Part shown: positions 1 to 36,782 of the stretch, piece after piece
Numbering within the stretch: position 1 is the first letter of the stretch
Layout: every line of letters begins with the position of its first letter
Assembly (NCBI GenBank): GCA_028867145.1
Contig: JAGWGX010000006.1
Coordinates: 1 to 38,164 of the forward strand
Direction: 5' to 3'
DNA length: 38,164 nucleotides
DNA from: Microcaldota archaeon
Lineage (GTDB): Archaea; Micrarchaeota; Micrarchaeia; Micrarchaeales; CABMGC01
The notes under the pieces: model-generated
What the model saw: the letters and a program-made list of their open reading frames with translations, nothing else
Database searches by the model: none
What the model was told of the DNA's origin: nothing
Position numbers and translations under genes: made by a program

Positions 1-246
1 CTTTACCTCGCTTGCGTTGTGAAGGGGAACCACGCAGCTTCCGTTGAGCGAGCCGTATGCGCAGCTCTGAGTTGAATTCACAGGGCCTGCGCCCCCGGAA
101 GTGGAGGAGACAACGAGCAAAAGCGCAACCAAAAGCACGACAAGCCCGATCAGGGCCACGTGTATGTTGTCAAGCCCGCCCATTTTGCCCAGCGGCCTGA
201 CCACTATTCCTGCTTCCTTTGCTGCTTTCTTTTGCTTTGCTTGCAT
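1..246 (-). CDS. N-terminal part of a single-TM protein, truncated by the window edge
   Basis: Manual minus-strand translation from ATG at 246: MQAKQKKAAKEAGIVVRPLGKMGGLDNIHVALIGLVVLLVALLLVVSSTSGGAGPVNSTQSCAYGSLNGSCVVPLHNASEVK..., open to base 1. Lys/Ala-rich N-terminus then one hydrophobic helix. Confidence 0.6.
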   Translation of the reverse strand, partial: MQAKQKKAAKEAGIVVRPLGKMGGLDNIHVALIGLVVLLVALLLVVSSTSGGAGPVNSTQSCAYGSLNGSCVVPLHNASEVK

Positions 247-257
247 ATGAAACACTA

Positions 258-345
258 CGGGCTCGACGGGATTTTCACAATTGTTTTGAACCCGTGACCT
301 TTGCCTTAGGACGGCATCGCTCTATCCAAGCTGAGCTACGAGCCC
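258..345 (-). tRNA. tRNA-Arg (CCU anticodon) with an apparent 13-nt intron in the T-loop
   Basis: Reverse complement folds as a cloverleaf: GGGCTCG acceptor / CGAGCCC, D-arm GCTC-AGCTTGGATA-GAGC, anticodon arm ATGCC-GTCCTAA-GGCAA (CCT), T-stem ACGGG/CCCGT. T-loop is 20 nt (TTCAAAACAATTGTGAAAAT) instead of 7 (TTCAAAT). Confidence 0.88.
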
Positions 346-399
346 AAACTTACTTTTGCTATAGATTATTTATAACCCTATCGGCACAAAATAGGCTTT

Positions 400-7127: not shown

Positions 7128-9413
7128 TTACGGGTGAACCCAGAGGTTGCTTGTTATTACAGACCCGCCGCCACCTCCGCCTCCGCCCCCAGAACCTCCG
7201 GTTCCCGGATTGCTCACCGCTCCGGTGCCGCCTCCGCCTCCGTGAGTTCCCGAACCAGCCGATCCAAACGTTGTGCAGCAATAGCCCCCGGTGTTGCCCC
7301 CGGCCCCAACGCCACCAGAAGATCCGGCACCCACACTCGTGCTTCCAATAGTAAGGGTCGTAGTGTAGCCTACGAAAATAGTGCCTCCGCTACCTCCCGT
7401 GCCACCTCCGCCTCCTCCGCCTCCTGCGCCGATGCAATTGGCGCCCGCATTGCCGCCCGCCAAACCGCTCGTGGCGCTAGAGCCCGAAACGGTCAGCGTG
7501 CCGGAATTTATAAAGTTGGTGCCGTAGAGCTCAACTATTCCACCGCCCGCGCCTCCGGCGCCGCCATTTGATCCTGTGCCCCCGATATAACCGCCGCATT
7601 GTGAGCCGCTGCCGTCGCCGCCCGCGCCTCCGCCTCCTCCTCCGGCGCCAGTGCTTAGCGTGGTGGAGAGGTAGTGGCTTGTTCTAGTGGTAGCAGAGCC
7701 GCCTGCTCCCCCGTTTCCTCCGCTGCGGGCTTGACCGTAAGGAACAGAAGCGCAGCAAGTGCCAGCTGCGCCCGCTGCGCCACCGGCAGGTGCAGTAATA
7801 ACCCCGTTGTTGGTGAAGGTGTTGTCAGCCTCCATATAATAGCCATTCTCATTGATTGTAACCCCGGAATTAACCGTTATCGAGCCCGTGGCAGCCACGC
7901 TGCACGTCAAGGTTACGGAGCTTGAGTAGGTTACATCGCCAACATAGCTTCCGCACGTAGGGCTTGCGGGAATTGTTGTGCTAGTCGAGCTGGTTGAAGT
8001 TGAGGTTGTTGAGGTAGATGAAGTTGAAGTTGTGGAGGTTGAGGTGGTTGAAGTGGTCGAGGTAGATGAAGTTGAAGTTGTGGAGGTTGAGGTGGTTGAA
8101 GTAGTTGAGGTCGATGTGGTAGAGGTCGTGGAGGTTGTAGTTGAGGTGAATGAGCCTGTCTCTGTTATCGGGTTGTTTAGCGTAATCGAAGGGGTAGTCG
8201 AGGCTCCGGTGTAGCTGCCCGAACCGGTTCCCGTCCATCCATTGAACGCGTATCCTGCGCTTGGGGTCTCTCCAAGGGTTGCGCCGCTGCCTGAGTTGTA
8301 CCATCCGCTAACCGGCGTCACGCTTCCGCCGATTCCTGGGGAGGCGGAGGTCGTGAGGTAGTACTGGGTTATGTAGTTCCCGGTGAGCGTGCAGTTTGCA
8401 ACCCCTGAAAGTGTTCCCGACTGCGTTGTTGCGCCGCAGCCTGTCACAAAGCTATAAACGTACTGAGTGTTAGCAGCTCCTGCGACCGTTGTCTGGAAGG
8501 CATATGAGTGTGAGACCCCCTGCCCGTAGCAGAGCGTCTGTGGAAGCACGGTGTATCCGACCCCGTCAAGCAGGAGTATGTTTCCCGTCGCGCCAGAAAT
8601 CGATGGTGCGGAGATGGTGTAGCAAACCGGAGCTGTGAATGCAACCACCACGTTTGCAACAATGTTTGCAAAAGAGGCGGTGACAAACACGTTCCCTGTG
8701 GCGGAGCTTGAGATATACGAGAACGCATTCCCGTTCCCATCAGTTGTTGTGACAAGCGGATTGACGGGAGCACTAATCGAGTTTGAAGTGAAGTTGACCG
8801 TTGCACCGGACACAGGGGTGCCAAGAAGCCTAACGTTTGCAGTAAGTTTGTCAAAGGAAGTTGACAAAGCAACCTGCGAAGAGTTTTGAGCACTTAAGGA
8901 AACAGTGATCGTGGTTGGAGAGAGAAGCTGGGAGGAGTGGGTGCTGAAGGTGCCAGCGAAGTTCTGCCTCTGATTATTTGAACATGATAGAACGTTGCCG
9001 CCAGGGCAGGGGGTATAGCTTAAAATGAACTTCCCTGATGCAAGCGCGCCCTGGGAAAGTGCAGGAGTTATAGTGGCATTGCAGATTATAGCACCGCCAG
9101 GATAGACAAAATTCGGCCTGCATGAGGCGATTATCGGATTGTATCCAGTTAGGTTCACGTTAAGGAGCGGATTTAGTATAGGGAACGGGTTTGTGTTTGT
9201 CAAAAGAAGCGCAATCTTGGAGAGAGTGTTTGAGGAGCCAAGGACTATGTCCTGGCAGTAGGGACCGGAGTAAAAGGAGCATGAGGACTGAGTGATTGTG
9301 GAGGGAGCAAAGACAAAAAGGTAGAGCGAAGCGGTCACAATGGCCGCAATCAGAAATGCCCATCCATAAGTTAGGATGTACTCTGTCGCAGATTGGACCT
9401 TTTTGCCCGCCAT
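7128..9413 (-). CDS. class III signal-peptide surface protein, chassis A + T/S linker + Gly-rich module type 1
   Basis: N-term MAGKKVQSATEYILTYGWAFLIAAIVTASLYLFVFAPS; Big/Ig-like segment (LLGTPVSGATVNFTSNSISAPVNPLVTTTDGNGNAFSYISSSATGNVFVTASF); InlB-like repeat (YYLTTSASPGIGGSVTPVSGWYNSGSGATLGETPSAGYAFNGWTGTGSGSYTG...); STTSTST linker; C-term CGSYVGDVTYSSSVTLTC... Gly-rich. ATG at 9411-9413 preferred over the GTG at 9416. Confidence 0.85.
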   Translation of the reverse strand: MAGKKVQSATEYILTYGWAFLIAAIVTASLYLFVFAPSTITQSSCSFYSGPYCQDIVLGSSNTLSKIALLLTNTNPFPILNPLLNVNLTGYNPIIASCRPNFVYPGGAIICNATITPALSQGALASGKFILSYTPCPGGNVLSCSNNQRQNFAGTFSTHSSQLLSPTTITVSLSAQNSSQVALSTSFDKLTANVRLLGTPVSGATVNFTSNSISAPVNPLVTTTDGNGNAFSYISSSATGNVFVTASFANIVANVVVAFTAPVCYTISAPSISGATGNILLLDGVGYTVLPQTLCYGQGVSHSYAFQTTVAGAANTQYVYSFVTGCGATTQSGTLSGVANCTLTGNYITQYYLTTSASPGIGGSVTPVSGWYNSGSGATLGETPSAGYAFNGWTGTGSGSYTGASTTPSITLNNPITETGSFTSTTTSTTSTTSTSTTSTTSTSTTSTSSTSTTSTTSTSTTSTSSTSTTSTSTSSTSTTIPASPTCGSYVGDVTYSSSVTLTCSVAATGSITVNSGVTINENGYYMEADNTFTNNGVITAPAGGAAGAAGTCCASVPYGQARSGGNGGAGGSATTRTSHYLSTTLSTGAGGGGGGAGGDGSGSQCGGYIGGTGSNGGAGGAGGGIVELYGTNFINSGTLTVSGSSATSGLAGGNAGANCIGAGGGGGGGGTGGSGGTIFVGYTTTLTIGSTSVGAGSSGGVGAGGNTGGYCCTTFGSAGSGTHGGGGGTGAVSNPGTGGSGGGGGGGGGSVITSNLWVHP
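8011..8106. repeat. two copies of a 48-bp tandem repeat (with a degenerate third to about 8150) encoding the Thr/Ser linker
   Basis: gaggtagatgaagttgaagttgtggaggttgaggtggttgaagt(ggtc) at 8011 and again at 8059, near-identical; in frame (16 aa). Confidence 0.85.
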
Positions 9414-9440
9414 CACATCGTGATTACTTGCAATAATATG

Positions 9441-20690: not shown

Positions 20691-23456
20691 TTAAGAGGGG
20701 AAGACGTAAACTGCGGCCGCAACCTGGGGGGCCGCACCGTTGTGGCAGGTGTTGACAGTTATTGTGTAGTGCCCAGGCTGCTGTGCGCTGCAAACCGCAA
20801 GATAGGAACCCGAGTAGTCGCCTGCGCTAGTTACAATTGAGCACCCTGATGGAAGATAGATGTTGTCTAGCCAGAAGTACCCTACCCCCATCGCAGTTAT
20901 GACAAATGCGCCAGGAGTAACAACATTATAGCTAAATGAAAAAGCTGGGCAAGTTCCTATTGGACCGCTTACCGCACCGGATGCAAGGAACTTTGTAAAT
21001 CCAGAGCTTGGGGTGAATCCTATTCCCGCAGTGCCTCCGGTGGTGCCAGAACCCCAGAATCCGTATGAACACAGATTGCTTGAGGAAAATCCAACCGCTC
21101 CAGAGGAATATGCAATTCCATTGGTCCATGGATTGACATTTCCTCCATTCTGGTTCATGCTACCTGCACAGATTGTATCTGCACCGGAGGAAACAGAACA
21201 GCGCAGAGAGCTGCCTTCAGGGGGGGTGTCTGAAGAGGCGCAAGTATAGTAGGGTATTGTCGAAGTTGAAGTAGTGGAGGTTGTAGTTGAGGTGGTGGAT
21301 GTTGTTGAGGTGGAAGTGGTTGTGGACTGAAGCCCATTTAGGCTGATTATAACAATTCCCGATCCGCCGTTTCCGCCTCCATTATCTGCAGCCCCTCCGC
21401 CCCCGCCGCCTCCGGTGTTTGGAGTCGCCGAGGAACCAGGGCCATATCCGCCTCCGTTTCCGCCACCGCCAATCCCGCCCTGCCCGATTACTTCACATCC
21501 GCAGCCTCCACTTTCACCACCTCCACCGCCGCCAGCATAATAAGTGAGAGTTCCGGAAATACTGCTTGGAAGGCCTGCACCACCAGGGCCGCCATAGTGC
21601 ACAGGACCATAGTAACCTAAGCCACCTACTGCTCCAGCCCCTCCGCCCCCGCCACCAGTTCTCAGATCCCCACTTGCTCCACCGCCATTTCCCTGCCCTG
21701 CGGTTCCTGCGCATGCGCCATCCCAATTTGAAGCGCCACCTCCCGAACCGCCTGACGAGCAAACAGCTCCAGGGCCTCCGCTTCCGCCACCTCCGCCTAG
21801 AGCAACTAGAGTACCAAATGAGCTGCTTGATCCAGACATGCCGGCTGAAGGGTTGGGCTCTCCTGCACCCCCTGCGCCCACCGTAACTGAATAGGTATTA
21901 GGATTTATCGTGAACGCCCCAGCATAGACGAATCCGCCTGCACCTCCCCCTCCGGCTGCGGATGTGCCGCCGCCTCCTCCTCCTCCGCCCACTACGAGCA
22001 CTGAAGCGCTGCAGCTAGAGCCGGAATAGGTGAAGGTCCCGCTCGAAGTAAAGGTGTGTATCTCATTTCCGCTCGAATAAGTAACTGTACCGCCTGTCGC
22101 AGAGCCCCCAAAAGTGCCAGAACAAAGCACTGTGGTTGTGGTCGAAGTTGTGGAGGTGCTTGTGGTTGATGAGCTAGTTGAGGTGAACGAGCCAGTCTCA
22201 GTTATCGGATTGTTTAGTGTGATCAAAGGTGCAGTGTTTGATCCGGTGTAGCTGCCAGACCCGCTCCCTGTCCATCCGTTGAACGCGTATCCTGCTGATG
22301 GCGTCTCTCCAAGGGTTGCACTGTTGCCTGAGTTGTACCATCCGCTTGGAGGAGTCACACTCCCTCCGATTCCTGGAGAGGCGGAGGTTGTAAGATAGTA
22401 CTGGGTTAGGTAATTGCCACTGAGCGTGCAGTTTGCGACTCCGGAGAGTGTTCCGGACTGGGTCGTTGCACCGCAGCCAGAGACTGAGTTAAACAGGTAC
22501 TGTACTCCTGCGGCACCTGCAATGGTCGTCTGGAAGGAGTAAGAATGGGAAGTGCCCTGACCATAGCAGAGCTGCCTTGGGAAAGAGGAGTATCCTACCC
22601 CATCAACTGTAAGTGCGTTGGAGGTTGAGCCGAAAAGGCCGGGAACTGAAATTGTAAAGCACACGGGAGGGGTGAAAGCGATTATCGCATTTGCAACTGT
22701 GTTTGCAAACGAGGCGGTTACAAACACATTTCCGGACATGGAGCTTGAAATGTAGGAGGCCGCATTTCCAGATCCATCGGTCGTTATTACAAGAGGCGCA
22801 ACTGGCGCACTAATTGAGTTTGAGGTGAAGTTGACCGTCGCGCCTGATAAAGGAGTACCAAGCAGCCTCACGGTTGCGGTCAGTTTGTCAAGGGAAGATG
22901 AGAGCGCGACCTGCGATGTGTTTTGAGGGGTAAGTGTAATTGTTATTGTCGTCGGAGAAAGAAGAGGTGAGGAATGGGTGTTGAAAGAGCCAAGGTAGCT
23001 CTGCCTTGCATTATTTTGGCACTGCACAACGCTTCCGCCCGGGCAGGGCGTGTAGCTGAATATGAAGCGCCCCGAGGCAAGAGCGCCCTGCGAGAGCGCA
23101 GGTGTTATCGTGGTGTTGCATATGACTGCCCCTCCGGGAAGTATGAAGTTTGGCACGCATGCTCCCTGGATCGGAGCAGTCCCGCTTAGATTAAGAATTA
23201 TCTTTGGGTTGATTATGGGATAAGGATTTGAGTTTGTTAGAAGCATTGCCATCTTCGAAAGTGTCGCAGATGAGCCAAGGATTAAGTCCTGGCAGTAGAC
23301 TCCGGAAGTGAAGGTGCAGCTTGATGGGGCAATTGCCGATGGGGCAAAAATAAAGAGGTACAGGGACGCGACCACAATTACGGCAATCAAGAATGCCCAG
23401 CCGTAGGTTAGAAGGTACTCTGTTGCAGACTGTAACCTGAACTTAATTCCTACCAT
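20691..23456 (-). CDS. class III signal-peptide surface protein, chassis A + linker + Gly-rich module type 2 + second linker + Cys-containing terminal domain
   Basis: 921 aa; KFRLQSATEYLLTYGWAFLIAVIVVASLYLFIFAPS; same A ectodomain; then HTFTSSGTFTYSGSSCSASVLVVGGGGGGGG...GGSGIVIISLNGLQ; second STT linker; YYTCASSDTPPEGSSLRC... domain. Confidence 0.85.
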   Translation of the reverse strand: MVGIKFRLQSATEYLLTYGWAFLIAVIVVASLYLFIFAPSAIAPSSCTFTSGVYCQDLILGSSATLSKMAMLLTNSNPYPIINPKIILNLSGTAPIQGACVPNFILPGGAVICNTTITPALSQGALASGRFIFSYTPCPGGSVVQCQNNARQSYLGSFNTHSSPLLSPTTITITLTPQNTSQVALSSSLDKLTATVRLLGTPLSGATVNFTSNSISAPVAPLVITTDGSGNAASYISSSMSGNVFVTASFANTVANAIIAFTPPVCFTISVPGLFGSTSNALTVDGVGYSSFPRQLCYGQGTSHSYSFQTTIAGAAGVQYLFNSVSGCGATTQSGTLSGVANCTLSGNYLTQYYLTTSASPGIGGSVTPPSGWYNSGNSATLGETPSAGYAFNGWTGSGSGSYTGSNTAPLITLNNPITETGSFTSTSSSTTSTSTTSTTTTVLCSGTFGGSATGGTVTYSSGNEIHTFTSSGTFTYSGSSCSASVLVVGGGGGGGGTSAAGGGGAGGFVYAGAFTINPNTYSVTVGAGGAGEPNPSAGMSGSSSSFGTLVALGGGGGSGGPGAVCSSGGSGGGASNWDGACAGTAGQGNGGGASGDLRTGGGGGGAGAVGGLGYYGPVHYGGPGGAGLPSSISGTLTYYAGGGGGGESGGCGCEVIGQGGIGGGGNGGGYGPGSSATPNTGGGGGGGAADNGGGNGGSGIVIISLNGLQSTTTSTSTTSTTSTTTSTTSTSTIPYYTCASSDTPPEGSSLRCSVSSGADTICAGSMNQNGGNVNPWTNGIAYSSGAVGFSSSNLCSYGFWGSGTTGGTAGIGFTPSSGFTKFLASGAVSGPIGTCPAFSFSYNVVTPGAFVITAMGVGYFWLDNIYLPSGCSIVTSAGDYSGSYLAVCSAQQPGHYTITVNTCHNGAAPQVAAAVYVFPS

Positions 23457-25732: not shown

Positions 25733-27142
25733 TCACACAGGTGCATAATAGGTGCTACTCACCCTAGCAGGAGTGTTTCCCCCAACGCAGTATATGTAAC
25801 CGCCATTTGAAATACAACTAGAGGTCTGAATGTTCAAAGGATATCCGGTTGTTGAAGACCAAGGAGTAAGTGCGGAGGAAACGAGATGTGAATAATAGAT
25901 GTTGTTTAGAAGGTTGCTTCCATTGCTGCCCGCTATGCAGTAGATGTAGCCTGAAATTGTCACACATAACTCGGTGTCTATACCCGCGGGATAAGAGGAT
26001 ACTGCTGTCCATGAACCTATTCCTGAAGAGGAAATTGGAGCAGTATATACTTCCGAATGTATTCCAACTCCACCTTCATAGCCACCCACGCAGACAACAT
26101 TTGAACCTATGACAACACAGCTAAGTTGATCGAGAGAAATTGGATAAGATGTTGTTTGAGTCCAGGCTCCAATTCCGCTACCCGATATAGGCGCGTAATA
26201 GGCCGCAGGATAGACAGCGCCTAAATTGTTGTAGTTAGTAACACAGTACACATAGCTTGAGGAGGTAAAACAACTTGAATACATTATGTTGCTTGGATAG
26301 CTTGTTGTTGCAGTCCAAGCTCCAACACCAGCGGAGGAGACTGTGGCATAGTAAGTATTCTGGAGTATGGTTCCAAAAAGATTCTCACCTCCAATACAAT
26401 AAAGATAGCCAGAACTTGTGACACATTGGCTGAGAGCCAAATTAAATGGATAGGAGGTAGTTGCGGTCCAGGCGCCTATTCCATTTGATGATATTGGAGC
26501 ATAATAAACATCAGCTCTTATGTTTGCAGGCCCGATTCCCCCAACGCAGTAGATGTAGCCTCCCGAGGTGGTGCAGCTGGTTCCTGCAATGACCTCGGGG
26601 TAGGAGATAGTTGAGTTCCAAGAGGAGATTGCGGCATTGAAGCTTGATGCGCTTCCAATCCCTCCAAGGGAAAGGGTCACATTTCCTGCGGTTGTGACTT
26701 TTGAGGTTACCACCGCAAATCTATCCAGTACTCCTGATTGAGTCGGAGTTGAATAGGTAAGCCATAGATAGCCCTTGAAGGGAGTGCCGAATTTGCTAGA
26801 TGTTAAAGGGCAGCTAAACTGCAAAACAGTTGTGGCGCCCGAGGCCATCTGGATATTGACGCTCTGCATTGTGGGGGCTGTCGCATTTGGGCTGCAGCCA
26901 AGCGCAGTTATTGAAATGGTGCTGATTCCTATCTCTCCAAACTTCACGCCCAGATAACCGGTAGTGTTCAGGATTGGGGTTTGACAAAGGAAGCCTGTTG
27001 TTGAAAGGCAAGCGGAGGCAAGAGAGTTTGTAGAGGTGCCAAATATCCCTAGCTGATAAAGCGCTCCAAGCACAACCGCAATGACAAGGATTGCCCATCC
27101 GTAGGTCATCAGGTACTCCATTGCACTTTGAAGCTTTGCCAT
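25733..27142 (-). CDS. class III signal-peptide surface protein, chassis B + kelch-like repeat module
   Basis: 469 aa; MAKLQSAMEYLMTYGWAILVIAVVLGALYQLGIF; then repeated 'SSGYIYCVGG...YYAPISSSGIGAWTATTSYP' units of about 50 aa. Confidence 0.85.
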   Translation of the reverse strand: MAKLQSAMEYLMTYGWAILVIAVVLGALYQLGIFGTSTNSLASACLSTTGFLCQTPILNTTGYLGVKFGEIGISTISITALGCSPNATAPTMQSVNIQMASGATTVLQFSCPLTSSKFGTPFKGYLWLTYSTPTQSGVLDRFAVVTSKVTTAGNVTLSLGGIGSASSFNAAISSWNSTISYPEVIAGTSCTTSGGYIYCVGGIGPANIRADVYYAPISSNGIGAWTATTSYPFNLALSQCVTSSGYLYCIGGENLFGTILQNTYYATVSSAGVGAWTATTSYPSNIMYSSCFTSSSYVYCVTNYNNLGAVYPAAYYAPISGSGIGAWTQTTSYPISLDQLSCVVIGSNVVCVGGYEGGVGIHSEVYTAPISSSGIGSWTAVSSYPAGIDTELCVTISGYIYCIAGSNGSNLLNNIYYSHLVSSALTPWSSTTGYPLNIQTSSCISNGGYIYCVGGNTPARVSSTYYAPV

Positions 27143-27169: not shown

Positions 27170-30151
27170 TTACGGCCAGGTCCTTGTTACTATCTGGCCA
27201 GATGACGAAGTGGACCCGCCACTGCATCCATTTCCTGCAGTGCGAGAAGTTGTGGTGGAGCCGTGTCCGCCGCATGCGCCAGCGTATCCGGAATATCCTG
27301 CACTGCCGCTCCAAGTGCAGCCATAGTAAACGTTAGGATCAGCCCCTCCTCCTGCACCACCGCCGCCTCCTCCGTTGCTGCCGCCAACGCCGCCGGCTGC
27401 TGATCCCACGTATCCTCCTGCGTTATTGCAGTAGAAAGTTGTAGGGGCATAGTAACCTCCTGCACCGCCGCTCCCTGCATTCACTGCAATATTGCCCTGT
27501 GTTAGCGCAGTCGAGTATGCGAGAAGCACTGTTCCGCCGCTGCCTCCTGCGCCGCCTCCGCCTCCGCCGCCCCAACCTGCGTAGTTAAACGAGCCTATCA
27601 CGTGGCTGGCCCCTGCGTCCCATCCTTTTTGCCCATTGCTTCCGCTTGCATTTATCAGGCCTGAATTTATTATGTTTCCGGCATAAATCTCAATTATCCC
27701 TCCTCCAGCGCCACCGCTGCCTCCCCATCCCCCGGCGCCATTGCTGTAGGGATCAGCTGTGGGTCCCCCAGCGCCTCCGCTCCCGCCGCCTGCGCCGCCA
27801 GATAAAGCAACATTTAGGTACTTGCTAGTTCTTGAAGCTCCTGCTGAGCCTGATACTCCTGCAACTGAGCTTCCTGCGCCCCCGCCTCCCCCTGAAAAGC
27901 TGTCCGTAACAACACCCGAATTTGTGAAGGTTTTATTTGCCTGCATATAATGCCCGTTTTCATCCACGGTTACTCCCGAATTTATGGTTATCGACCCGGA
28001 TGCGACCACATTGCAGGTCAATTTCACAGGGACCGAGTAGCTCACATCTCCGACATAGCTGCCGCAGTCCGGATTTGACGAGCTTGTCGTGGTTGTGGTT
28101 GACGCAACCCCAATTACCGCTATCCCCATTCCGCCTTGGGACCATTGAACCATCGCATTAGCGCCATTTTGGTGCGTGTAGACCAGGGAGTATGCATCTG
28201 CATACTGAGCCTGGGTTGGATAGCTATCAAGCGCAGTAAGCCCAGTCCAGATTGGTTGCCATGCGGAACTTAGGTGGCATGTGCTGCCCATTCCAATAAG
28301 TAGATCGTTTGGGATGCTTGTGGAGTACGTTGTTCGCACTTCGTATCCCGGATAATCTGGTGTACCCGAATCGGATCTTGTGGCCACGGATGGCAGGGAA
28401 ACGTTGGGGTCAAAAACCTTCCCGTTCGTTACACCAAGAACAAATAGCGCATCGTAGTAGCCTCCTGAGCCAGCAAATGTCGTGCTAACCGCGTCATTGC
28501 TGACCGCGCGCCCGGGCAGGGCGTAATAGACCCATTCTGCGGAGCATGCCCCAGGAAGAGTGGTGTACTCAAGAGTCCAGGTCAGGCCAGCCGTGTCTGA
28601 GAAGCTGTTAGGCCCCGAGCCACAACCAGCATTACAAAAAGCGAGCGCCACGAGCATATCATTTGGATTTGAGGTGGTGAACGTAGGGGAGGTGACAGTG
28701 CCTGATGTCGAATAGCCGGCAACATGGAAATCAAGTGATACGGGGGCTATCGTACTCGTAGTTGAGGTAGAGGTAGTGGTGGAGGAAGTGGTGGTGGAGG
28801 TCGAGGAAGTGGAAGATGTAGAGGTTGTGCTTGTCGTTGATGTAGAAGTTGTTGAGGTGGTGGAGGTAGAGGTGGACGTAAATGCTCCCGTCTCAGTTAT
28901 CGGGTTGTTTAGCGTTACCGATGGAGAGGTTGATGCCCCAGTGTAGCTGCCAGAACCAGTCCCGGTAAATCCGTTGAAAGCATATCCCGCGCTTGGAGTC
29001 TCACCAAGAGTTGCGCCGCTGCCAGCATTGTACCATCCGCTAACCGGAGTCAGACTTCCTCCAATTCCAGGAGAGGCAGATGTTGTCAGGAAATACTGCG
29101 TTATATAGTTTCCGTTGAGCGTGCAGTTTGCGACTCCGGATAATGTTCCGGACTGTGTTGTTGCCCCGCATCCGGAGACAAAGTTAAACAGGTACTGTAT
29201 CCCGGCGGCGCCCGCAACAGTCGTTGCAAATGAGTACGAATGAGATGTTCCCTGCCCATAGCAGAGTTGTTGCGGGAAGGATGAATACCCGACCCCATCG
29301 ACTGTCACCGCATTTGACGAGGCACCCGAAAGAGATGAAATCGAAATGGTGTAGCAAACTGGTGGCGTGAAGCTAATTATCGCATTTGCTATTTGGTTTG
29401 CAAAAGATGCTGTCACAAGCACGTTTCCAGAAACGGAGCTTGAGATATAGGAGACTGCATTTCCTGATCCGTCTGTAGTTGTTATGAGTGGATTGAGAGG
29501 GGCATTTACAGAGTTGGAAGTGAAGTTTACTGTTGCTCCGGAGAGTGGAGTACCAAGAAGCCTCACGTTTGCAGTAAGTTTGTCAAGGGAGGCTGAGAGC
29601 GCGACTTGAGAGGTGTTTTGGGGAGTTAAGGTAATGGTTATTGTTGTTGGGGAAAGAAGCGGAGATGCATGCGTGTTGAAAGAGCCAAGATAGCTTTGCC
29701 TTGCATTGTTCTGGCACTGCGAGACGCTGCCTCCAGGGCATGGGGTGTAGCTGAAGATGAATTTCCCGGAGGCAAGAGCACCTTGTGAGATTGTAGGGGT
29801 TATTGTCGCATTGCAAATTATTGCGCCACCAGGAAGGACAAAGTTTGGAATGCATGTTCCTGAAATTGAGGACATCCCACTCAGATTAAGCGTTATCCTT
29901 GGATTGATTATCGGATATGGATTTGAGTTTGTGAGGAGCATGGCCATTTTTGAGAGCATTGAGGAGGAACCCAGAATCAGATCCTGGCAGAAAACCCCTG
30001 AGGTAAAGGCGCAGGTTGAAGGGCTCAGCGTTGATGGTGCAAAGACAAACAGATAAAGAGACGCAACCACGATTACCGCGATCAAGAACGCCCATCCGTA
30101 GGTAAGAAGGTACTCCGTTGCTGACTGGATTTTTATTTTCGAGGTGCCCAC
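27170..30151 (-). CDS. class III signal-peptide surface protein, chassis A + linker + beta-rich domain + Gly-rich module type 1 (GTG start)
   Basis: 993 aa; KIKIQSATEYLLTYGWAFLIAVIVVASLYLFVFAPS; linker; SLDFHVAGYSTSGTVTSPTFTTSNPNDMLVALAFC... domain; then CGSYVGDVSYSVPVKLTCNVVASGSITINSGVTVDENGHYMQANKTFTNSGVV, homologous to the 7128-9413 C-terminus. Confidence 0.85.
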   Translation of the reverse strand: MGTSKIKIQSATEYLLTYGWAFLIAVIVVASLYLFVFAPSTLSPSTCAFTSGVFCQDLILGSSSMLSKMAMLLTNSNPYPIINPRITLNLSGMSSISGTCIPNFVLPGGAIICNATITPTISQGALASGKFIFSYTPCPGGSVSQCQNNARQSYLGSFNTHASPLLSPTTITITLTPQNTSQVALSASLDKLTANVRLLGTPLSGATVNFTSNSVNAPLNPLITTTDGSGNAVSYISSSVSGNVLVTASFANQIANAIISFTPPVCYTISISSLSGASSNAVTVDGVGYSSFPQQLCYGQGTSHSYSFATTVAGAAGIQYLFNFVSGCGATTQSGTLSGVANCTLNGNYITQYFLTTSASPGIGGSLTPVSGWYNAGSGATLGETPSAGYAFNGFTGTGSGSYTGASTSPSVTLNNPITETGAFTSTSTSTTSTTSTSTTSTTSTSSTSSTSTTTSSTTTSTSTTSTIAPVSLDFHVAGYSTSGTVTSPTFTTSNPNDMLVALAFCNAGCGSGPNSFSDTAGLTWTLEYTTLPGACSAEWVYYALPGRAVSNDAVSTTFAGSGGYYDALFVLGVTNGKVFDPNVSLPSVATRSDSGTPDYPGYEVRTTYSTSIPNDLLIGMGSTCHLSSAWQPIWTGLTALDSYPTQAQYADAYSLVYTHQNGANAMVQWSQGGMGIAVIGVASTTTTTSSSNPDCGSYVGDVSYSVPVKLTCNVVASGSITINSGVTVDENGHYMQANKTFTNSGVVTDSFSGGGGGAGSSVAGVSGSAGASRTSKYLNVALSGGAGGGSGGAGGPTADPYSNGAGGWGGSGGAGGGIIEIYAGNIINSGLINASGSNGQKGWDAGASHVIGSFNYAGWGGGGGGGAGGSGGTVLLAYSTALTQGNIAVNAGSGGAGGYYAPTTFYCNNAGGYVGSAAGGVGGSNGGGGGGAGGGADPNVYYGCTWSGSAGYSGYAGACGGHGSTTTSRTAGNGCSGGSTSSSGQIVTRTWP
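28753..28881. repeat. Thr/Ser-linker low-complexity tandem repeat inside the 27170-30151 gene
   Basis: Degenerate gttgaggt/ggaggtagaggt trinucleotide-based repeats encoding STTSTTSTSTTST. Confidence 0.7.
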
Positions 30152-33158: not shown

Positions 33159-34481
33159 TTAAGGCGTTCCGTTGCCTAATGCATTGAATGAGATTATCAC
33201 AATTCCAGAGCCTCCTGCCGCACCTGAGGTTGAGGGGCCACCGCCTCCTCCTCCGCCAGTATTGGGCGTTCCAGAAACGACAGCAGAATACGGGCTTGCG
33301 GAACCGCCTGCGCCCCCTCCGCCAGAGCCGCCGGCGCTAGGGCCGGAATAACTAGAGCCGCCTCCTCCTCCGCCGTAATATAATGAGCTTCCGGTGATGG
33401 AGCTAGAAAGGCCACTTCCACCGTTTCCCCCGCGATCGATCGCACCGTTTCCATTTGCTCCAACAGACCCCGCGCCTCCGCCACCGCCGCCTGCCCCTCC
33501 TCCTGGCGCTGCTCCGTTGCCGCCGTTGTTGCCCTGGCCCATAGTTCCAGATCCGGGACCAATGGCTTGAGTTCCTCCGCCGCCGGAGCCCCCATTTTGA
33601 GCGGGCCCGCTGTAGCCTCCGCTGCCCCCTCCTCCGCCGCCCAATGAGGTTATTGTGCTAAATGTACTATTGCCTCCAGATATTCCGTTATAGTCAGGGG
33701 ATGCAGGACCCGGCGCGCCACCATTTCCAATCGTCACAGTATAGGTTCCAGGGGATACTGCAAAGTTGCCGAAATACTGGACGCCTCCGCCGCCTCCTCC
33801 GCCCGAATAACCATATCCTCCGCCTCCGCCGCCTCCTCCAACTACGAGTACAGCAACATTACCGCTGCCGCCAGTAGAGCTAAAGGTCCCGCTTGAAGTG
33901 AAAGTGCAGATATCGTTTCCAGCAACAACGGTGAGCGTACCGCCACAAGTTGCAGCAAATAGTGCTGGCCCTCCGGTACTTGGTCCTCCTCCAAGCACTG
34001 CGATGACGTTTCCTGTTGTCGAAACCTTTCCTGTGACAACGGCAATCCTATCTACAAGTCCGGACTGCGTCGGTGTGGTATACGTAAGCCAGAGGTATCC
34101 CTTGAATCCGGTTCCAATTGCATTTGAGCTTAGTGGACAACTGAATACAAGGATTGCAGTGGAACCTTGGACAAGCTTAAAATTAACCCCCTGTGTTGAA
34201 GTCGGCGCAGTTATATTTGTAGTGCATGCGGTGTTAGTTATGGTCAAAGAGCTAGTTCCGATAGCACCAAACTTTACCGCAAGCCACCCGGTTGTGTTCA
34301 GTATAGGATTCTGGCACAAAAAGCCTGAGGAGGCAAGACAGGAGGAAGAGAAGCCTAGCTGGTTGCTGTTGAATACGCCAAGCTGGTAGAGAGCACCAAG
34401 CACAACCGCAATAATCAGGATTGCCCATCCGTAGGTCATCAGGTATTCCATTGCGCTTTGAAGTTTTGTCATAAAAACCAA
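33159..34481 (-). CDS. class III signal-peptide surface protein, chassis B + Gly-rich module type 2
   Basis: 440 aa; MTKLQSAMEYLMTYGWAILIIAVVLGALYQLGVF; CTFTSSGTFSSTGGSGNVAVLVVGGGGGGGG...GGSGIVIISFNALGNGTP. Confidence 0.85.
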   Translation of the reverse strand: MVFMTKLQSAMEYLMTYGWAILIIAVVLGALYQLGVFNSNQLGFSSSCLASSGFLCQNPILNTTGWLAVKFGAIGTSSLTITNTACTTNITAPTSTQGVNFKLVQGSTAILVFSCPLSSNAIGTGFKGYLWLTYTTPTQSGLVDRIAVVTGKVSTTGNVIAVLGGGPSTGGPALFAATCGGTLTVVAGNDICTFTSSGTFSSTGGSGNVAVLVVGGGGGGGGYGYSGGGGGGGVQYFGNFAVSPGTYTVTIGNGGAPGPASPDYNGISGGNSTFSTITSLGGGGGGSGGYSGPAQNGGSGGGGTQAIGPGSGTMGQGNNGGNGAAPGGGAGGGGGGAGSVGANGNGAIDRGGNGGSGLSSSITGSSLYYGGGGGGSSYSGPSAGGSGGGGAGGSASPYSAVVSGTPNTGGGGGGGPSTSGAAGGSGIVIISFNALGNGTP

Positions 34482-34484
34482 TAG

Positions 34485-36782
34485 TTATGGGTATGTCGTA
34501 CAATAGGAGGGATTTGGAGTTGCTAGAATATCTTGTGTTGTTGAAATCCATTGCCCAACACCAGGATTTAGTTGAGCGTAACGCGTCTGATAACCCTCAG
34601 AAGTGATGCAGTAAATATCACCGTTGTGGGTAATACACTCTGCACCAGAGACATAGCTGTCAGGATAAGAAGTAGTCGCTGTCCAAGTTCCTATGCCCGA
34701 AGCTGAAATGGGTGCATAATAGACCAAAGAAGGCGAAGCCCCGCCACTTGGGGAGATGCAGTAGATGTAACTCGAATATGCAGCACAAGAACCACCACTT
34801 AAGCTCACTGGTGAGGAAGTTGTTGAACTCCATGTACCTATGCCAGAGCTTGAAATTGGCGCATAGTAACTGTTAAGAGTCGTGTATGGTCTGCTGATGG
34901 TGTCGCCACCCACGCAGTATATGTAGCCATTGTAGACAAGGCATTTAATTTGCACAGCTGGTATGGGGTAGGAAGTTGTAGTTCCCCATGAACCTACACC
35001 TGAAGCAGAAACAGGAGCATAATATACGTTAGTCGTATCTGATGCACCACTATTACTTCCAGCAATACAGTAGATATATCCATTAGATGATACGCAAGAA
35101 TTACCTTGTATGCCTGTAGGATAGGGAGTTGTTGTCGTCCAAGTTCCTATGCCCGTGGCTGAAAGTGGTGCATAGTAGACAAAAGGTGTATCGGTATTAC
35201 CATTTCCATAAGCATTACCATATCCTCCAACGCAGTAGATGTAATTATTGTATGAAGCACATATTGTTGGGGGCGATTCAAGCAGCTGAGGATATGTAGA
35301 GGTGGAATAATTCCATCCTCCTATACCCGAGTTTGAGATTTGAGCATATGAGTTGGCATTGTTGTTCCAGACGCTAACGCAGTAGACATATGCTATAGTT
35401 GTGGAGGTTGAAGTCGAGGTTGAGGTGGTGCTGGTCGTTGAGGTGGAAGTTGAAGAGGTAGAAGTTGTTGAGGTGGAGGAGGTTGTGGTTGTAGAGGTCG
35501 TGGTTGAGGTAAATGAACCCGTCTCGGTTATCGGGCTGTTTAGCGTAATTGCAGGTGAGGCCGAAGAACCACTGTAGCTGCCTGTCCCAGTCCCTGTCCA
35601 TCCATTGAACGCGTATCCGGCACTTGGTGTCTCACCAAGAGTTGCGCTGTTTCCTGAATTATACCATCCGCTTGGCGGGGTTACCGCTCCCCCGATTCCC
35701 GGCGAGGCTGAAGTTGTAAGATAGTATTGTGTTATGTAGTTCCCGTTGAGGGTGCAGTTTGCAACCCCCGAGAGGATTCCAGACTGGGTTGTTGCGCCGC
35801 AGCCTGAGACGGAGTTAAACAGGTACTGTATTCCCGTACCACCAGCAACCGTCGTCTGGAAGGAGTAAGAATGCGAGGTTCCTTTTCCGTAGCAGAGTTG
35901 CTGCGGGAATGAGGAGTATCCTACGCCGTCAATGGTGAGCGCGTTTGAGGTTGCGCCCGAAAGGCCGGGAACCGAAATTGTGAAGCACACAGGAGCGGTG
36001 AAGCTGATTATTGAATTTGCTATCTGGTTTGCAAAAGAGGCACTGATAAGGACGTTTCCAGTTGCGGAGCTTGAAATGTATGAGGACGCATTCCCTAATC
36101 CGTCCGTGGTGGTGACAAGCGGATTGATTGGGGCATTAATTGAGTTTGAGGTGAAGTTCACCGTTGCGCCGGAAAGGGGCGTGCCCAAGAGCCTCACGTT
36201 TGCGGTGAGTTTGTCAAGCGAGGATGAAATGGCAACTTGTGAAGTATTTTGGGGAGTTAGAGTTATTGAGATTGTTGTTTGGGAAAGTAGTGGCGAGGCA
36301 TGTGTGTTGAACGAGCCGGTGTAGCTCTGCTTTGGATTTGACTGGCACTGTATGACATTTCCACCAGGGCAGGGTGTATAACTTAGGATGAACCTGCCCG
36401 ATGCAAGAGCGCTCTGAGAGATCGCAGGTATTATTGTCGCGTTGCAGATTATCGCGCCTCCGGGAAGGATGAAGTTTGGGATGCATGTTCCCAATATTGG
36501 CGCAACCCCAGTCAGGTTAAGGGTCATTTTCGGATTTAGTATTGGATAGGGGTTTGAATTTGTGAGGAGCATTGCCATCTTTGAAAGAGTCGATGAGGAG
36601 CCAAGAACCAGGTCCTGGCAGTACACCCCTGAAGTGAATGTGCAGGTGGAAGCGGTAAGGGTCGATGGAGCAAAGACAAAGAGGTAGAGGGATGCCGCTG
36701 CAATTGCTATGATCAAAAATGCCCAGCCGTAGGTGAGAAGGTACTCCGTGGCGGACTGTATCTTAATTTGGGAATTTCCCAT
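34485..36782 (-). CDS. class III signal-peptide surface protein, chassis A + linker + kelch-like repeat module
   Basis: 765 aa; KIQSATEYLLTYGWAFLIIAIAAASLYLFVFAPS; A ectodomain; STT linker; repeated 'NGYIYCVGG...YYAPISSSGIGTWSSTTSSP' units. Confidence 0.85.
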   Translation of the reverse strand: MGNSQIKIQSATEYLLTYGWAFLIIAIAAASLYLFVFAPSTLTASTCTFTSGVYCQDLVLGSSSTLSKMAMLLTNSNPYPILNPKMTLNLTGVAPILGTCIPNFILPGGAIICNATIIPAISQSALASGRFILSYTPCPGGNVIQCQSNPKQSYTGSFNTHASPLLSQTTISITLTPQNTSQVAISSSLDKLTANVRLLGTPLSGATVNFTSNSINAPINPLVTTTDGLGNASSYISSSATGNVLISASFANQIANSIISFTAPVCFTISVPGLSGATSNALTIDGVGYSSFPQQLCYGKGTSHSYSFQTTVAGGTGIQYLFNSVSGCGATTQSGILSGVANCTLNGNYITQYYLTTSASPGIGGAVTPPSGWYNSGNSATLGETPSAGYAFNGWTGTGTGSYSGSSASPAITLNSPITETGSFTSTTTSTTTTSSTSTTSTSSTSTSTTSTTSTSTSTSTTIAYVYCVSVWNNNANSYAQISNSGIGGWNYSTSTYPQLLESPPTICASYNNYIYCVGGYGNAYGNGNTDTPFVYYAPLSATGIGTWTTTTPYPTGIQGNSCVSSNGYIYCIAGSNSGASDTTNVYYAPVSASGVGSWGTTTSYPIPAVQIKCLVYNGYIYCVGGDTISRPYTTLNSYYAPISSSGIGTWSSTTSSPVSLSGGSCAAYSSYIYCISPSGGASPSLVYYAPISASGIGTWTATTSYPDSYVSGAECITHNGDIYCITSEGYQTRYAQLNPGVGQWISTTQDILATPNPSYCTTYP
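35398..35511. repeat. Thr/Ser-linker low-complexity tandem repeat inside the 34485-36782 gene
   Basis: gtggaggttgaagtcgaggttgaggtggtg...: trinucleotide-based repeats as in the paralogs. Confidence 0.7.

Follow-up and report, generated by a model that had tools for sequence, protein, structure and literature searches.

Organization of the locus

The window, i.e., the whole stretch of 38,164 nucleotides that was analysed, is contig C37 of a 681-kb assembly (G000) that is 82.8% complete. By sequence reading, a tRNA-Arg(CCU) gene of 88 nt was located at window 345..258 on the minus strand; the initial annotation had given its position correctly as 258-345, and the strand is now given as minus. 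The gene was found to have the layout of a standard class I tRNA with the anticodon CCT, reading GGGCTCG-TA-GCTC-AGCTTGGATA-GAGC-G-ATGCC-GTCCTAA-GGCAA from its start to the anticodon arm and AGGTC-ACGGG-TTCAAAACAATTGTGAAAAT-CCCGT-CGAGCCC-G in the remainder, with the T-arm between ACGGG and CCCGT. The acceptor, D and T stems were intact; in the anticodon stem, a single A-A mismatch occupied the outermost position. The T-loop (TTCAAAACAATTGTGAAAAT) was 20 nt long. The features of the locus are listed in Table 1.

Table 1. Features identified at the tRNA-Arg(CCU) locus (window coordinates)
Feature	Position	Strand	Basis
TATA-box-like sequence TTATAAATA, at roughly -30 to -22 relative to the start of the tRNA	367..375	-	By eye, upstream sequences of tRNA genes
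tRNA-Arg(CCU) 5' exon, positions 1-59, ending ...ACGGGTTCAAA, anticodon CCT	285..345	-	Sequence; ARAGORN after splicing
Predicted central helix, 5' strand, TTCA (T54 T55 C56 A57), exon	287..290	-	Comparative: A57 tRNAs with TGAA, G57 tRNAs with CGAA
Predicted T-loop intron ACAATTGTGAAAA, 13 nt, at position 59/60	272..284	-	Removal restores TTCAAAT and the full tRNA; absent in G006, G011, G013 and G027
Predicted central helix, 3' strand, TGAA, intronic, separated from the T-stem by the 3-nt bulge AAT (273..271)	274..277	-	Sequence
tRNA-Arg(CCU) 3' exon, T60 to discriminator G73, TCCCGTCGAGCCCG	258..271	-	Sequence
Next gene after the tRNA, cut off at the contig end; encodes the N-terminal portion of a membrane protein with one span	1..246	-	Conserved neighbour

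The membrane protein, which is about 350 aa long in a relative, is encoded 11 bp from the tRNA-Arg(CCU) gene in the window, an arrangement that suggests co-transcription of the two genes. An absence of RNase P, as suggested by a TATA box near the tRNA start, was rejected, since an archaeal RNase P RNA match was found in G000 and in 28/30 relatives. Further along the window, six large proteins, all encoded on the minus strand (7128-9416, 20691-23456, 25733-27142, 27170-30151, 33159-34481, and 34485-36782), showed common pilin-like N termini, QSA(T/M)EYL(L/M)TYGWA, and in most of them Thr/Ser linkers or glycine-rich regions come next. They are members of an expanded family on one contig, probably of surface proteins.

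Detection of the interrupted tRNA gene

ARAGORN reported no tRNA for the whole unspliced window, and no Rfam family reached its threshold there; under relaxed settings, the Rfam tRNA model gave 23.8 bits for the tRNA-Arg(CCU) gene compared to a threshold of 29 bits, and the T-arm was skipped. When 284..272 was deleted, ARAGORN called a clean tRNA-Arg(cct) with a full cloverleaf and a T-loop reading TTCAAAT, so that taking out the 13-nt insert restored a complete tRNA. A BLAST search with the spliced tRNA as query aligned query positions 1-61 to window 345..285. The initial claims of 13 extra nucleotides in a 20-nt T-loop, and of a normal TTCAAAT loop after their deletion, were thus borne out. 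A group I or group II self-splicing intron was ruled out, as the insert is 13 nt long compared to a catalytic core of hundreds of nucleotides and no Rfam family reached threshold. Judged from its sequence and that of its relatives, 345..258 is almost certainly a functional tRNA-Arg(CCU) gene that is interrupted by a 13-nt intron of the archaeal bulge-helix-bulge (BHB) type at position 59/60.

The initial annotation had called the intron very short. This did not hold, since archaeal tRNA introns span 11-129 nt with medians mostly of 12-25 nt, and position 59/60 is among those listed (review PMC4090602). T-loop introns have been described for archaeal pre-tRNAs generally, and non-canonical introns are cleaved by the ARMAN-2 epsilon2 enzyme (PMC6379350, PMC4033280, PMC12397907). 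Both the position and the length of the Arg(CCU) intron are already known for archaea, and it is less surprising than first thought. It resembles the known non-canonical 59/60 BHB introns (PMC4090602) in insertion site, in its 4-bp helix with 3-nt bulges and in a length within their range, but differs in that it belongs to an ARMAN-like lineage, that its inner helix is nearly absent and that such introns also occur here in class II tRNA-Ser, both in G000 and in relatives.

The tRNA set of G000 is intron-rich. Besides the Arg(CCU) gene, T-loop inserts with the TTCA/TGAA design were found in tRNA-Arg(TCT) (G000:C13) and tRNA-Ser(GGA) (G000:C22), and a related insert was found in tRNA-Leu(CAA). 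The Arg(TCT) and Ser(GGA) cases argue against a chance reading of the Arg(CCU) gene. The tRNA-Leu(CAA) inserts of G000 (L032, G000:C11; AGTTTTTGAACAAA) and of the relative G011 (L130; ACAATTGAACAAA) contain TTGAAC and a 5-nt 3' bulge, a relaxed geometry unlike that of the Arg and Ser introns. D-loop introns of approximately 18-20 nt appear to be present in tRNA-Gln(CTG) (L035, G000:C11) and tRNA-Leu(TAA) (L036, G000:C1), both of which are missed by ARAGORN. tRNAscan-SE 2.0 contains archaeal BHB models and might detect the tRNA-Arg(CCU) gene. As ARAGORN misses tRNA genes with T-loop introns, tRNA sets and completeness of ARMAN-like genomes can seem poorer than they are.

T-loop introns in related genomes

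A survey of 31 genomes (G000 and 30 relatives) with the pattern GGTTCAAA-N(2-30)-TGAA-N(1-2)-TCC gave about 80 matches in 25/31 genomes, compared to six for the reversed pattern used as control. Matches were spliced in silico and passed to ARAGORN, and G57 and wobble variants were added. In total, 81 genes in 27/31 genomes were recognized as tRNAs by ARAGORN only after splicing, with introns of 12-36 nt. They comprised Ser(GGA) (19), Arg(CCT) (17), Arg(TCT) (16), Ala(GGC) (12), Ser(CGA) (6), Arg(TCG) (6), and a small number of other tRNAs. For class II tRNAs, the isotype was read from the sequence, since several were mislabelled by ARAGORN. In many class II tRNAs of the survey, the anticodon arm held a further intron. 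When the sample was widened to 196 genomes, a match was found in 86/104 genomes of the same order and in 43/92 elsewhere in the class (split counted by hand), the latter being an upper bound, as some matches are probably due to chance.

The spliced tRNA was used as query for a BLAST census, which, combined with sequence reading, identified 28 Arg(CCU) orthologues, among which 23 carried a T-loop insert, four were intron-free and one was interrupted elsewhere; the gene was not identified by this census in 3/31 genomes. The T-loop reads TTCAAAT in all four intron-free copies (G006, G011, G013, and G027), and the copy from G011 was 92% identical to the window tRNA after splicing, along its full 75 nt. 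The T-loop inserts of G005 and G012 contain no perfect TGAA, and the G016 gene has an anticodon-arm insert in place of the T-loop insert. In most of the relatives examined, the membrane protein gene lies next after tRNA-Arg(CCU). As it is also found downstream of the intron-free genes of G013 and G027, copies with and without the intron occupy one orthologous locus.

Geometry of the T-loop introns

The initial annotation had suggested that TTCA/TGAA complementarity could form a relaxed BHB, and this was supported by the comparative data. In the Arg(CCU) gene, a 4-bp central helix (TTCA/TGAA) can join exon and intron, with 3-nt bulges on either side (AAA and AAT), and the design recurs in Arg(TCT) and Ser(GGA) of G000. 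The inner helix H' of a strict canonical BHB is reduced to a single C-G pair over AATT. As this helix has one pair only, the intron is classified from its sequence as a relaxed form of the bulge-helix-loop (BHL) type. In many introns of relatives, the inner helix has 3-7 bp.

TGAA or CGAA was found in the expected register in 70/81 T-loop inserts of G000 and relatives; most of these came from searches for TGAA, and because the survey patterns contained TGAA or GAA, the frequency of this motif is partly built in. The inner helix provided an independent test, because the search pattern fixed TGAA and not the rest of the intron. With a 3-nt 5' bulge, the first three inner-helix pairs were formed in 111/132 cells (84%; 69 introns in the 5' bulge register test), compared to 42% when strands were swapped between introns (sd 3.3%; highest value among 2000 trials, 52%). 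Sliding the register of one strand lowered pairing, to 0.20-0.51 for most slides, while joint shifts of both strands still scored high (0.62-0.75), since both strands then stay within one helix. At the pair that ends the central helix, A57 tRNAs had TGAA (65) or wobble TGGA (6), and G57 tRNAs had a compensating CGAA in 4/6 restored cases; the exon strand is nearly invariant, so that covariation in this helix rests on one pair in few sequences.

Splicing machinery and proposed mechanism

An epsilon2-type endonuclease gene, which the initial annotation had proposed to look for elsewhere in the genome, was found on contig C5. It encodes a single-chain splicing endonuclease (EndA) of 379 aa, whose frame runs off the end of the contig and which matched the ARMAN-2 EndA (PDB 4fz2/9w2k) with 467.8 bits and 60% identity over 333 positions. 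The chain was shown to consist of three units, with two catalytic-domain and two N-domain stretches by Pfam, and the catalytic triad Y236, H251 and K282 was kept. The ARMAN-specific loop (ASL) was conserved as GQYGTYK, with K161 aligned to K. From these features, the G000 EndA is assigned to the epsilon2 (ARMAN) type; it would presumably act as a homodimer. The EndA match, together with general background, is also the ground for calling the lineage ARMAN/Micrarchaeota-like. An EndA match of the same size class was present in 31/31 genomes.

The ARMAN-2 EndA cleaves both BHB and BHL pre-tRNAs, and its cleavage needs Y160 and K161 in addition to the catalytic triad; the substrates in these 2025 assays were ARMAN-2 pre-tRNA-Ile and pre-tRNA-Cys (PMC12397907). 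The G000 enzyme is thus like that of Ca. Micrarchaeum acidiphilum ARMAN-2 in its three-unit single chain, its identity, its catalytic residues and its ASL lysine, whereas the assayed substrates were those of ARMAN-2. The T-loop introns form a set of natural substrates for studying how far an ARMAN-type endonuclease works without an inner helix.

An RtcB ligase is also encoded in G000. Its gene (L150, G000:C3:120-2927) is one frame of 975 aa in which IGFDIN is followed by an intein of about 490 aa, and Pfam placed an Intein_splicing domain between two RtcB parts. To judge from this frame, the ligase required for the intron-bearing tRNAs must itself undergo protein splicing.

In the precursor, the 4-bp central helix is predicted to arise by pairing of the invariant T54-T55-C56-A57 of the T-loop with the TGAA of the intron, with A58-A59^A and A-A^T60 as the bulges on its two sides. 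Cuts by the three-unit EndA with its ARMAN-type lysine loop would then fall 3' of A59 and 5' of T60, and the exon ends would be joined by RtcB to give the T-loop TTCAAAT. Splicing would have to precede T-loop modification. For the Arg(CCU) precursor, cleavage, the exact cut sites and ligation are inferred.

Alternative explanations

That the insert is retained, and that the mature tRNA works with an enlarged 20-nt T-loop, has some precedent in organelle tRNAs with deviant arms. It would also agree with the minimum free-energy fold of the precursor, in which the TTCA/TGAA helix is absent and a large T-loop is left instead. Forcing the helix costs about 0.7 kcal/mol, and the free fold shows the central helix in only 22/70 introns; a thermodynamic proof of this helix was thus not obtained, the helix being marginal in energy. 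Against retention, however, the inserts of relatives differ in length (12 to 36 nt) and yet keep the BHB geometry, intron-free orthologues have a 7-nt loop, and an ARMAN-type splicing enzyme is encoded, which makes a retained insert very improbable. We give even less credence to a decayed pseudogene or an assembly error. The gene is missed by ARAGORN, and by Rfam at its cut-off, and its anticodon stem has the A-A mismatch, but the other stems are intact and the same locus carries a T-loop insert in independent genomes. Besides, it is the sole Arg(CCU) gene found: no other CCU tRNA was detected among the recognisable tRNA genes of the 82.8%-complete assembly, where the initial annotation had named another intact copy, combined with a lack of transcription of this one, as evidence against its claim. 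Its codon AGG is the most used arginine codon (143/242 in ten window genes), which a UCU tRNA could also read by wobble. Because of the level of completeness, a second Arg(CCU) gene could still lie in the missing part of the genome.

Splicing in another register, at 57/58 or 58/59, is unlikely, if less so than the two preceding explanations. Taken alone, the Arg(CCU) gene leaves the boundary ambiguous because of the A run beside it, and shifting both cuts would give an identical mature sequence here. By contrast, related introns that end in AAG or AAC (L052, L054, L106, L107, and L147) give the standard TTCAAAT only if cut at 59/60, which supports this splice site. The standard BHB cutting rule, between the second and third bulge nucleotide, also points to 59/60. 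A relaxed BHB intron, as first proposed, in the T-loop of a tRNA of an ARMAN-like archaeon is the best explanation, with an ARMAN-type EndA encoded in the same genome.

Similarity of introns within genomes

Intron cores from different tRNAs of one genome showed a similarity of 0.30, compared to 0.15 when genome labels were shuffled within isotypes (reached in 0/2000 shuffles), and the values for Arg only were 0.35 and 0.16, respectively. Among length-matched pairs, within-genome similarity was 0.49 compared to 0.36 for unrelated pairs. With Ser(GGA) included, this 0.49 was no higher than the 0.52 for the same tRNA across genomes, while without Ser(GGA) the within-genome value was 0.58 compared to 0.42 (same tRNA, other genomes) and 0.38 (unrelated). 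These statistics only partly control for genome relatedness and do not distinguish common origin from transfer. Arg(CCT) and Arg(TCT) introns were identical in G030, another case of alike introns in different tRNAs was found in G025, and in genus g2 three genomes shared the Arg(TCT) intron AGACCTTCTGAAAR and the Ser(CGA) intron AGATYTTCTGAAAA. The window Arg(CCU) intron showed no notable similarity to the Arg(TCT) intron of G000.

The likeness of introns across different tRNAs of one genome, class II tRNA-Ser included, suggests spread or homogenisation. Tentatively, 59/60 may be a preferred landing site in this order, as the invariant TTC(A/G) supplies half of the BHB, with short introns being spread or homogenised between tRNAs of one genome, including class I tRNA-Arg and class II tRNA-Ser; we regard this as possible rather than probable. 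As summarised in PMC4090602, the transposition of tRNA introns in Thermoproteales (Fujishima 2010) is similar in that introns of different tRNAs are alike within one genome, while the present case differs in concerning another phylum and a single examined position (59/60) and in including tRNA-Ser. The Ser introns are worth following, since PMC4390854 stated that class II tRNAs offered no instance of a translocatable intron. Movement of introns between tRNAs, class II included, thereby becomes testable in a lineage outside Thermoproteales.

The anticodon-arm insert in the tRNA-Arg(CCU) gene of G016 (L182, G016:C13, about 45369-45469) was found to hold a near copy of the anticodon arm, with GATGCCGTYCTAAGG occurring twice, and looks as if the intron arose by partial duplication.
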